A stretch of DNA of 64,000 nt from the NCBI RefSeq assembly GCF_018310535.1, contig NZ_CP074102.1, positions 5,828,001 to 5,892,000 on the forward strand, read 5' to 3'. This document shows, one piece after another, positions 51,288 through 54,779 of this stretch; position 1 is the stretch's first letter; every line of letters starts with the position of its first letter. The DNA comes from Streptomyces mirabilis. Its GTDB lineage: Bacteria > Actinomycetota > Actinomycetes > Streptomycetales > Streptomycetaceae. The notes beneath the pieces were generated by a model. The model searched no databases. It worked only from the letters and a program-made list of their open reading frames with translations, and was not told where the DNA came from. The translations under genes were made by a program, and so were the position numbers.

Positions 51288-51622
51288 AGCTCATCACCGC
51301 CATCGTCAAGCCGTACCGTCTCGACGAGGTCAAGACCGCTCTCCAGGAGCTCGGCGTGCACGGGCTGACCGTCAGCGAGGCCAGTGGGTACGGGCGCCAG
51401 CGCGGCCACACGGAGGTCTACCGCGGCGCCGAGTACCAGGTCGACCTGGTCCCCAAGGTCCGTATCGAGGTCGTCGTCGAGGACGCGGACTCGGAGGCCG
51501 CGATCGACGCGATCGTCAACGCCGCGCAGACGGGGAAGATCGGCGACGGGAAGGTGTGGGCCGTACCGGTCGAGACGGTCGTACGGGTGCGGACGGGCGA
51601 GCGCGGCCCCGACGCACTCTGA
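51284..51622 (+). CDS. glnK: Nitrogen regulatory protein PII (GlnK)
   Basis: A 112-residue trimeric PII signal protein: [20 protein letters not shown], the T-loop [24 protein letters not shown] with Y51 (site of adenylylation or uridylylation) and the B/C-loop [14 protein letters not shown]. It blocks AmtB when nitrogen is plentiful. ATG overlaps the amtB stop. glnD, which usually follows in Streptomyces, is absent; the 3' 107 bp are overlapped by a convergent gene instead. Confidence 0.96.
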
Positions 51623-52601
51623 GCCACCACGGGCGGGTACCGCCCCTGCGCGCTCCGAGCCACCAAGGGCCGCTGCCGCTCCTGCGCGCCCTGATCACCA
51701 CCACGGCGGCGGCGATCCCCGCGCCCACCACCACCGCCATCAGCCACGGCAGCGCGAAGAACGACGTGCTCGCCGATTCCCGGGTGCCGGGCGCGCTGGC
51801 CGTCAACGTCACGTCGCCCCAGTCGAGTTGGGGCGCCCCGTGCCAGGGCTCGGTCAGCCGGACCCGTTGCCCCGGCAGCAGCTCCGAGGGGATCTTCGTG
51901 AGCTCCCGGGACAGCAACGTACGCCCGAAAAGGCCCTCGGCCCTGAGCCGCACCTTCGGGTTCAGGGTGACGTTCCCGGCGTTGCGGAGGGTGTACGAAA
52001 TGGTGGCGCCGCTCTCGCCGAGGCCGGGGACCAGGGGCTGGTGGTGGCTGATGTGGACCTTCTCGACGGCGAGGGCGGGGACGGTGGGCCCGCCGACCCG
52101 GAGGTAGATCCGGGCGCCGACCGCCCGTTGCACCGCCACCGCGGACGTCGCCGCGTCTGAGCGGTCGAGGCGCTCGTCGAGTGCGACCAGCGCGCCCGGA
52201 TGGTCACCGGGTTCGGCCTTCTCGGGCACCCGGAGGGTGAACGGCACGGTCACCGAACCGCGCGCGGGCACCGTCACCCGGGAGCGGGCGGGGTGCGCCC
52301 ACGCGCCGACCCCGAGCTGCTTCTCCTGCACCGTCCGCACCGCGAACCCGCCGTCACGCGCGGTGTTGTACGCGTCGGCGGCGTACAGCCGGAAGGTCAG
52401 CGGGGCGCCGGTCTTGTTGGCGACGGTGACCTTGTCCCGGAGGGTCTGTCCGGGGTCGGCGGAGAGATAGAAGTACGGACGGGCCGCGATCTGCGTGGAG
52501 ACGGGGTAGACGGACCAGCTGCCGTTGTCGGCGGCGTACGAGGCGGGCGTGGTGAGCGCGAGAAGGAACACGGACAGGACGAGGACGTACAGCTTGCGCA
52601 T
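51516..52601 (-). CDS. DUF916-like secreted, membrane-anchored protein (WxL-interacting type)
   Basis: A 361-residue protein: signal peptide about 1-23 ([20 protein letters not shown]), a mature part with [51 protein letters not shown] (DUF916-like) and [30 protein letters not shown], a second sandwich domain, one TM helix (about 287-306) and an Arg/Pro-rich cytoplasmic tail. In Firmicutes DUF916 proteins bind WxL proteins and peptidoglycan; a WxL-like protein is encoded just upstream on this strand. The tail coding overlaps glnK 3' end by 107 bp, so the true C-terminus deserves caution. Confidence 0.8.
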
Positions 52602-52687
52602 GGGTGCGGACCCCCGCGGATGTGGGTGGACAGGCCCTGGGCGGACGGGCGGGTGCGCGCCCGGCCACCGGGGTGCGGAGGGGTGGA

Positions 52688-54037
52688 TCAGGTGAGCGTC
52701 AGGGTGAGCACGCCGGAGTAGGAACCCGGCGGGGTGAACGCCGGTACGTCCAGTGACAGCCCGGCGTCGACGGTGAACTCACCACCGGTGAGCGCTCCGT
52801 TGGGGGTGGACGCCAGCGTCGCTCCCGCACCGCCCACCGCGCCGGACGAACCGGCCTGGCAGGTGCTCGGGCTGCCCGCCTTGGTCGCGCAGGCGGGGGT
52901 CCAGCTCAGCTTCCCGGCATCGATCTTGGCGCCGGGACCGGTGAAGTCGGTGACCTTGCCGGTCAGGGACCAGCCCGCGGGTCCGCCGCGGAAGTCCTTG
53001 ACGGTCACCGTCTGCAGGGCCCCGGTCGAGGCCCCGCCCTTGCCGAAGTCCACCGCCGACAGCTGGACGGCGTCCCCGGCCTGGGACATCGACAGGGTTC
53101 CCGCCTTCACCGTGGTGGTGAGTTTCTGGGAGCCCGCGGGGATCGGGGTGTCGTCGACGACCACGTACGCCGCCGGCCCCGCTCCCTTGGTGTCGCTCCA
53201 GCTCGCGCCCTCGTACGCCACCACGCCGGTCGTCGTCTTGTCGTTGACGGCCAGCGTGCCGCTGATCGAACCCTGCGCGTCGGCGGTCGTGGTGGCGGTG
53301 TCGGCGGTCTGGGTGGCCCCCGACCGTCCGGCGAGGGTCACGCTCGCGCCCGGGGTGAAGTTGCTGCCGGTGACGGTCACGCTGTCACCGGGCTTCCCGG
53401 AGGCCGAACCGAGCGAGATGGCACGGTTGTTGGTCTGGGTTCCGTCCGTCGCGGTGATCGTCCCGGAGACCGGGGCGGGCGGGTTGGTGACCGTGCAGGG
53501 GGTGTCCAGCTCCAGGATGTAGCTGGTGTGGATGTTGTAGTCGCCGGGCGCGAGGGTGATGGCGCCCGGGCTGGTGACGGTGAAGGTGCCCGTCATGCTG
53601 AACCCCGGGAAGGGCGCGTTGCCCGCCACCGGGTCGTTCTTCCTGGGGCCCGCGACCGTGACGTCCCCCGTCTGCGCGCCGCCGAGGGCGACCTTGCCGG
53701 TGGGCGTCATGATGTCGGCGGGCAGGGCGAGGGCGGTCGGGTTGTTCGCGGCGGGCGTGACCACCTTGTACGTCACGGTGACGGTGTCACCGACCTTGGG
53801 ACTGGGGTTGTCCACCGTGATGATCGCGGTGGTGGTGCCGTCGATCGGCGGGATGCCCGCGATCGCCGGCGGGATGCAGTGCGTGGCGAAGTCCACGTTC
53901 TGGGAGTCCGCGGCCGCGGCGCCCGCCGGGGCCGCCAGCGCGCCTCCCGCGGTGACCGCCAGCGCGGTCACCCCGAGCAGTGCCGCCCAGCGGCGTCTTC
54001 GGGCGTGCGAACCCCTGGTTCCCCTGTGCGTTGCCAT
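52688..54037 (-). CDS. Secreted WxL-like cell-surface protein
   Basis: A 449-residue exported protein; signal peptide about 1-37 (RRRRWAALLGVTALAVTAGGALAAPAGA). Ig-like sandwiches follow (PKVGDTVTVTYKVV; GKPGDSVTVTGSNFTPGASVTLAG). The C-terminal about 160 residues resemble a WxL domain: TVTVKDFRGGPAGWSLTGKVTDFTGPG holds a W-S-L motif, and the end PPGSYSGVLTLTLT matches the second motif position with Leu in place of Trp. WxL domains bind cell-wall glycans in Firmicutes. AGGAGGGGG stands before ATG 54037. It lies 86 bp upstream of the DUF916-like gene and is likely co-transcribed with it. Confidence 0.78.
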   Translation of the reverse strand: MATHRGTRGSHARRRRWAALLGVTALAVTAGGALAAPAGAAAADSQNVDFATHCIPPAIAGIPPIDGTTTAIITVDNPSPKVGDTVTVTYKVVTPAANNPTALALPADIMTPTGKVALGGAQTGDVTVAGPRKNDPVAGNAPFPGFSMTGTFTVTSPGAITLAPGDYNIHTSYILELDTPCTVTNPPAPVSGTITATDGTQTNNRAISLGSASGKPGDSVTVTGSNFTPGASVTLAGRSGATQTADTATTTADAQGSISGTLAVNDKTTTGVVAYEGASWSDTKGAGPAAYVVVDDTPIPAGSQKLTTTVKAGTLSMSQAGDAVQLSAVDFGKGGASTGALQTVTVKDFRGGPAGWSLTGKVTDFTGPGAKIDAGKLSWTPACATKAGSPSTCQAGSSGAVGGAGATLASTPNGALTGGEFTVDAGLSLDVPAFTPPGSYSGVLTLTLT

Positions 54038-54169
54038 GTGCCCCCTCCTGAGGGATGCGGGCGCAGCGGCTCGTCTGCGCCGACAGGGGGCCATTGATGT
54101 GCGGGTTGTGTGAGAAGTCAATGGAGGGCCCGGACGGCAACTGATGGGCCATCAGGTTGTGTCAATATC

Positions 54170-54200
54170 GCCAACTGGGCACCCCTGTAGGCCAGTTGGC
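54170..54200. promoter_or_regulatory. Inverted repeat upstream of the WxL-like gene
   Basis: GCCAACTGG-N13-CCAGTTGGC, perfect 9-bp arms, within a stretch (54135-54235) rich in CAACTG/CAGTTG motifs. It lies 133 bp upstream of ATG 54037 on that gene's promoter side, so it may be an operator or part of the terminator zone of the next gene. Confidence 0.5.
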
Positions 54201-54243
54201 TGTGATCAGGTGGTTGTTCAGGCAGTTGTTCTGGCAGTACGAG

Positions 54244-54278
54244 GACCGGTGCCGCCGCGCGCGCCGGCGACACCGGTC
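54244..54278 (-). terminator. Hairpin after the 158-residue secreted-protein gene
   Basis: GACCGGTG (54244-54251) and CACCGGTC (54271-54278) with a GC-rich, partly self-pairing interior, 25 nt past the stop at 54303. Confidence 0.6.
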
Positions 54279-54302
54279 TTCACGTATGTGCTGTGGCGGG
54301 GC

Positions 54303-54779
54303 TCAGCTGAAGACGAACGGGCCCGGTGCCTGCGCCGCGCTCGCGGTGCACGTGATGGTGATGCCGAAGACGACCATCTTCAGCGAGCCTCCGTATGCGT
54401 CGAGGCTGTCGCCGGAGGCGACGGTGCCGCTGAGCGGGCCCACCGTGACCCCGCCGCCCAGCGGAATGGCGGGATTCTTCGTGCCGGTGAACGCGACGGT
54501 GCCGCCGCCGGACTTCGCCATGGTCAAGGTGGAGGCGATGGAGTCCTGCGCCAGCGCGATCGGCGCGGTGATCGAGGTGGAGCTGAGGGTGATGGTCGCG
54601 GCCGTGCCGTCCTGGGTGGCGGTGAGAGTGGCCGCGCCACCGCCGCCGATCGTGCAGGTCGCGTTGATGGTCGCGGTGAGCGGGGTGACGGCCGCGGCGG
54701 TCGGCGCGAGGGCCAGGCCGGTCGCGGCGAGGGTGCCGGCGGCTAACGCCGCGGCGATTCCGAGTTGCTTGCGTCTCAT
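54303..54779 (-). CDS. Small secreted protein of unknown function
   Basis: A 158-residue exported protein. Signal peptide about 1-30 (LGIAAALAAGTLAATGLALAPTAAA). The mature part is Thr/Ala/Gly-rich beta-strand sequence with two cysteines (NATCTIGGGG and GITITCTAS) that could form a disulfide. No family was recognised. GGGAAGGGAA precedes ATG 54779. Same strand as the WxL-like and DUF916-like genes, suggesting a shared envelope function; inference. Confidence 0.75.
   Translation of the reverse strand: MRRKQLGIAAALAAGTLAATGLALAPTAAAVTPLTATINATCTIGGGGAATLTATQDGTAATITLSSTSITAPIALAQDSIASTLTMAKSGGGTVAFTGTKNPAIPLGGGVTVGPLSGTVASGDSLDAYGGSLKMVVFGITITCTASAAQAPGPFVFS

Follow-up and report, generated by a model that had tools for sequence, protein, structure and literature searches.

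A probable one-tryptophan variant of the WxL/WxLIP gene pair in Streptomyces mirabilis and other actinobacteria

WxL proteins are reported mostly from Firmicutes and have been associated with adhesion, virulence or the use of carbohydrates (PMC9772566, PMC10599100); one account assigns over 91% of 938 sequences to Firmicutes (PMC9772566), and another places the proteins "almost entirely" in two orders (PMC10599100). Their published sequence motifs comprise an Asp-x-Arg-Gly ahead of the first WxL (PMC1534035) and a distal YxxxTWxL (PMC5817068), and for an Enterococcus pair AlphaFold predicts that a strand of the partner protein, WxLIP, completes the WxL beta-sandwich (PMC10599100). Within a 64,000-nt stretch of Streptomyces mirabilis (NZ_CP074102.1, GCF_018310535.1, positions 5,828,001-5,892,000; hereafter the window, to which coordinates refer), from a host genome of 9.62 Mb in 2 contigs, we examined two adjacent genes encoding a 449-residue WxL-like protein and a 361-residue DUF916 protein. 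We read them, with a probability of roughly 0.7, as an actinobacterial, one-Trp form of the WxL/WxLIP system for surface display. This reading rests on homology, pairing, co-divergence, domain architecture and a fold match of the partner to a WxLIP solved together with a WxL protein, and it would extend a Firmicutes-dominated pair to Streptomyces and other actinobacteria.

Pairing and co-divergence of the two genes

Three minus-strand open reading frames (ORFs) run from 54779 to 51516 and encode proteins of 158, 449 and 361 residues, each with a signal-peptide-like start as judged by eye. The latter two form the pair:

52688-54037, minus strand: putatively secreted 449-residue protein with signal peptide, head D1, TIG-like domain and C-terminal WxL-like domain
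51516-52601, minus strand: DUF916 / WxLIP-like membrane partner, 361 residues

The 449-residue frame sits inside a longer ORF with a start at 54121, and 86 bp separate it from the downstream partner gene. Because homologues at E <= 0.001 are numerous (764 for the WxL-like, 1168 for the DUF916 and 809 for the small protein; identities of 80-99%, 67-93% and 70-99% among the best 120 of each), the three ORFs are taken as genes rather than chance frames. Streptomyces is rich in relatives of all three. Scanning the locus for promoters and terminators gave no signal exceeding shuffles.

The pairing of WxL and DUF916 genes is real. When 41 genomes were searched for the WxL domain only (profile A6, built from loci mostly found through DUF916, with at most 95 candidates scored per genome), DUF916 adjoined 37 of the 42 places recovered: in 32 it follows closely on the same strand, with 62-389 bp separating the matches, and in 5 it lies upstream. 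An orthologue of the 449-residue protein (E <= 1e-60) occurs in 36 of 101 Streptomyces genomes; 32 neighbouring regions were fetched, 2 of which ended too soon, and DUF916 follows on the same strand in 30/30 of the others (29 within ~240 nt, one at ~640 nt). With the window and loci L016, L017 and L026, this makes 34/34 testable Streptomyces orthologues. An earlier note on this DNA, made from the sequence, had staked its proposal on conservation of the gene pair in related genomes, and the pair came through that check.

Beyond the genus, a phylum sample with only ~1.5 kb of flank per locus gave a PF06030 match in 28/296 genomes, and a WxL-like ORF adjoins the best match in 20. Fifteen of these were found by a profile from Streptomyces alone (E <= 3e-5), Pfam adding 2; pairing at L043, L044 and L053 comes solely from iterated profiles, which were trained on phylum loci. 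In 77/79 named loci taken from a DUF916 scan, a WxL-like ORF lies upstream of DUF916, a figure that applies to the DUF916 kind bearing the peptide pattern VDRR[LVI]G... by which these loci were picked. Genera in which the pair variant occurs include Streptomyces, Micromonospora, Microbacterium, Planotetraspora, Jiangella and Embleya. Distances between WxL proteins track those between their DUF916 neighbours (r = 0.96, 113 pairs; maximum 0.16 in 500 shuffles), also within the window's genus (r = 0.97, 35 pairs); as these within-genus pairs mix paralogous locus types, the species tree alone is disfavoured as an explanation.

Peptidoglycan binding is reported for the WxL domains of Firmicutes (PMC5817068, PMC9772566), and the actinobacterial domain might bind alone, the DUF916 protein being merely auxiliary or an independent wall protein. 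The 5 of 42 WxL places without a DUF916 neighbour (one at a contig end) would fit, as would the WxL-tailed ORFs at L109:9834-11732 and L065, which have no DUF916 directly adjoining in the stretch examined. Near-constant adjacency and co-divergence speak against lone binding, and we consider it unlikely.

With PF06030 alone (E <= 0.001) the host genome has a single place. A DUF916-like protein at a third host locus, missed by PF06030, was found by iterated profile; it follows a 175-residue protein that is nearly all WxL domain, like a small WxL protein (L015:2435-4035). In an order-level relative (L019:3717-8496), genes for a sortase, an LPHTG protein, a WxL protein and DUF916 are clustered.

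The earlier note had also supposed a little-described actinobacterial counterpart. Such a counterpart already has names, since those given by NCBI to Streptomyces homologues include DUF916 and, for part of them, WxL ("WxL domain-containing", "WxL protein peptidoglycan domain-containing"); our literature search (titles and abstract openings, few subscription journals) found no description of an actinobacterial system. One paper mentions an Actinomycetota family whose neighbours include DUF916 and metallophosphatases (PMC12537917).

Family assignment of the two proteins

The 449-residue protein divides as follows:

53441-53905, minus strand: head domain D1, about residues 45-199, with two conserved cysteines (hhalign; low-confidence part of the model)
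53156-53431, minus strand: TIG/neocarzinostatin-like Ig domain, about residues 203-294
52691-53107, minus strand: WxL-like domain closing the protein, about residues 311-449 (PF13731 below cut-off; pLDDT block means mostly 80-95)
52970-52972, minus strand: Trp356, in the retained first WxL motif after DFRG (Trp in 44/44 distinct domains)
52691-52720, minus strand: terminal strand YSGVLTLTLT with the distal WxL motif, Leu replacing Trp (Trp in 0/43)

Both motifs on which the note had built, GWSL and the C-terminal YSGVLTLTLT, are present in the ORF translations. The first reads DFRGGPAGWSL, so that Asp-x-Arg-Gly precedes Trp-x-Leu, and across 44 distinct actinobacterial domains (including 13 from close Streptomyces orthologues) the Asp is kept in 41, the Arg in 41 and the Trp in 44. 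At the distal site, covered by 43 domains, Tyr is found in 43 and Thr in 42, and Trp in none; its substitutes are Leu (22), His (5), Phe (4), Ile (4), Glu (3), Val (3), Thr (1) and Gln (1). The degenerate second Trp motif that the note had described is thus right, and extends to every distinct actinobacterial domain covering the site. This absence from all domains examined suggests that the distal Trp may be dispensable for pairing.

Assignment to the WxL-like family, as first proposed, is supported by the profile matches of relatives, the DxRG...W pattern, the C-terminal position in a protein judged from sequence to be secreted, and the partner. For isolated actinobacterial domains PF13731 was the commonest match (E <= 1 in 21/25, best 1.2e-11), its cut-off is passed in 4/296 genomes of the phylum sample, and a profile from Streptomyces domains only reaches distant actinobacterial domains directly. 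Were the domain instead an unrelated C-terminal Ig-like domain of chance resemblance, the window's score below cut-off and the weak DUF4402 match in 5/25 isolated domains would be accounted for; the frequency of PF13731 matches, the members that pass its cut-off, the DxRG...W and Y-x3-[LIV]-T pattern common to WxL domains and a partner independently matched to WxLIP make such a coincidence very improbable.

By profile comparison, D1 is of the same family as the heads of LPxTG/LAxTG-type proteins encoded at a second DUF916 locus in the host (8 such domains aligned; hhalign 99.5%). That locus, L014:2568-6763, encodes an LPQTG protein, a DUF916-like protein (PF06030 just 13.7 bits), an Ig-transmembrane protein and an LAQTG protein, without WxL. 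The heads of other WxL ORFs vary: a Pfam scan of 66 of 83 ORFs (17 from Micromonospora were dropped), trimmed to the last 720 residues, found a purple acid phosphatase in 44/66, and also HtaA, GDPD and others, and at L020, L029, L041, L065 and L109 WxL tails stand on HtaA, GDPD, peptidase M64 and PBP-like heads. The frequency of phosphatase heads suggests nutrient scavenging at the cell surface. Among listed homologues of the 449-residue protein that carry a name, most are called "beta-xylosidase", which was rejected: no glycoside hydrolase family matched at E <= 1, a single-sequence search returned no solved relative, and the profile of alignment A4 gave E 0.7 for glycoside hydrolases and no better than E 0.076 for a beta-xylanase, whose match lay over the signal-peptide region.

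The partner comprises:

52083-52520, minus strand: DUF916 (PGBD) domain, about residues 28-173
52095-52139, minus strand: candidate donor strand, residues 155-169, mostly alternating hydrophobic (putative role)
51747-52076, minus strand: second Ig-like domain, about residues 176-285, in the DUF3324/HBD place (model and fold search)
51681-51746, minus strand: transmembrane helix, about residues 286-307 (predicted helix, hydrophobic sequence)

The DUF916 assignment is supported by the curated profile (PF06030, 35 bits against a cut-off of 27.3) and by fold, the protein matching, over both domains, a WxLIP whose structure was solved bound to a WxL protein. The DUF916-like assignment that had been proposed for the partner holds, with a signal-peptide-like start and a predicted transmembrane helix. 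Of the three profiles that the note proposed to compare, PF06030 lies above its cut-off, PF13731 falls below, and DUF3324 has no Pfam match in the 361-residue protein. The full WxLIP motif NQIDKxxxYFDLK is not in this protein, where only parts (QI, YF, L) can be aligned. A lower-confidence loop (about residues 141-160) precedes the candidate strand in the model. Strand statistics were taken from alignment A2 (20 rows besides the window), which was not selected by peptide pattern, rather than from A5, because residue conservation in A5 is biased by the VDRR[LVI]G... selection.

Several results weigh against a WxL/WxLIP relationship. On the side of pairing, WxL lies beside 33/54 DUF916 places (54 of 61 rows, 7 weak fragments being dropped) and the other 21 have no WxL neighbour, adjacent WxL is likewise absent in 8/28 phylum-sample genomes with a PF06030 match, and joint inheritance of adjacent genes could also give co-divergence. 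The window locus has one WxL gene, whereas the published cluster definition calls for one WxLIP and at least two WxL; two are present at L027, L028, L037, L044 and five relatives' loci. On the side of homology, PF13731 scores 15.9 bits against the whole 449-residue protein and 19.9 bits (E 8e-4) against its isolated domain, both below the 25-bit cut-off, whole-protein matches at E <= 0.01 occur in just 7/66 relatives, and the window domain lacks the distal Trp. Sequence searches for a solved WxL chain gave no significant match with either of two profiles (the best hit of one, a "cell-wall anchoring protein", had E 0.8; the second had none). The fold search lists no solved WxL chain among 50 matches, and with the chain of 9i25 absent from these, the evidence for a WxL fold is indirect. 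Since the distal Trp, a defining WxL feature, fails, we call the system a variant rather than a canonical member.

The small upstream protein and era

The first of the three ORFs is a neighbour of the pair:

54303-54779, minus strand: small secreted protein, 158 residues, family unassigned, probably outside the pair

The small secreted protein noted upstream is present as described; it seems to be a resident gene in its own right, probably outside the pair, since G007, G009 and G014 also have it by era or amtB with no pair present. On the same grounds we rejected it as a fixed third component. It accompanies 9/11 relatives' loci holding the pair; its place in G007 is overlapped by a weak match to the DUF916 tail, interrupted by stops (E 4e-5). 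It had no Pfam match at E <= 1, and hhalign detected no relation to D1 (probability 0.03%); comparison with the LPxTG-type head alignment gave a weak hint (hhalign 35%, E 7e-5).

In the fetched regions era follows the pair on the same strand, directly or after convergent glnB/amtB (window era, ~48793-49746); its match is fragmentary in L177 and in two pieces in L163. DUF916 and era form one open frame in 7 Streptomyces genomes (L017, L166-L171). Because the sequence ahead of the era start is alike in fused and unfused loci, era may still start separately in the shared-frame genomes. A review describes Era-DUF916 fusions in Streptomyces as difficult to interpret (PMC10582724); with DUF916 lying just before era and in frame with it in 7 genomes, this shared frame may be their source.

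At its 3' end the DUF916 gene runs 107 bp into convergent glnB (51516-51622), and an overlap of ~100 bp recurs in 11/14 fetched relatives with glnB at that place. The window has an amtB-glnB pair; in L148, L154, L173 and L174 glnB lies between DUF916 and era without an amtB match. Near the locus, on the plus strand (56165-57394), is a TnpB-like gene with OrfB_IS605 and Cas12f1-like TNB domains.

Proposed display system and described counterparts

In the proposed WxL/WxLIP variant, the 449-residue protein would be secreted. The DUF916 protein, with a single C-terminal helix fixing it in the membrane and both Ig-like domains lying outside, would keep the C-terminal WxL-like domain of the 449-residue protein at the cell envelope; the head (D1 and the TIG-like domain) would thereby be displayed on the surface. 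Secretion, physical contact, surface location, any contact with peptidoglycan and a ligand of the head are what we infer. By analogy with the Enterococcus model, the likeliest contact would be a DUF916 strand completing the WxL beta-sandwich.

In a more specific form of this proposal, the DUF916 protein would be a membrane-tethered analogue of PapD-type chaperones, donating residues 155-169 into an incomplete WxL Ig fold and gripping the WxL C-terminus with conserved Arg residues. Such strand donation is possible, though we consider it less likely than not. A shade more doubtful is its extension to a general sortase-independent display module of Actinomycetota, in which a head with a one-Trp WxL tail would be captured by WxLIP through PapD-like donor-strand complementation. 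The heads would then be a phosphatase, glycerophosphodiesterase, haem-binding HtaA or D1, and WxLIP, if this is true, a chaperone that never releases.

Set against described systems, the 449-residue protein and its relatives share with WxL proteins (PF13731; CscB/CscC of Firmicutes csc clusters) the C-terminal position, Asp-x-Arg-Gly before the first Trp, variable heads, Y-x3-[LIV]-T ahead of the distal site and a gene adjoining that for DUF916; they differ in lacking the distal Trp in 43/43, in a window domain below cut-off and in heads that include phosphatases and other enzymes. WxLIP/CscA proteins (DUF916-DUF3324-transmembrane; PDB 9i25, 9i1y) differ from the partner, whose second domain Pfam does not recognise as DUF3324 and which lacks the full NQIDKxxxYFDLK motif. 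Like PapD-type chaperones (CfaA, CupB2, YadV), the partner has two Ig domains, the match spanning most of the chaperone, and a mostly alternating-hydrophobic last strand, but it is membrane-anchored in a monoderm, and we claim similarity of fold rather than homology. LPxTG/LAxTG anchoring (CscD, sortase substrates) offers a final parallel: the D1 family also occurs on LPQTG/LAQTG proteins beside another DUF916-like gene of the host, whereas the 449-residue protein carries its D1 without a sorting signal.
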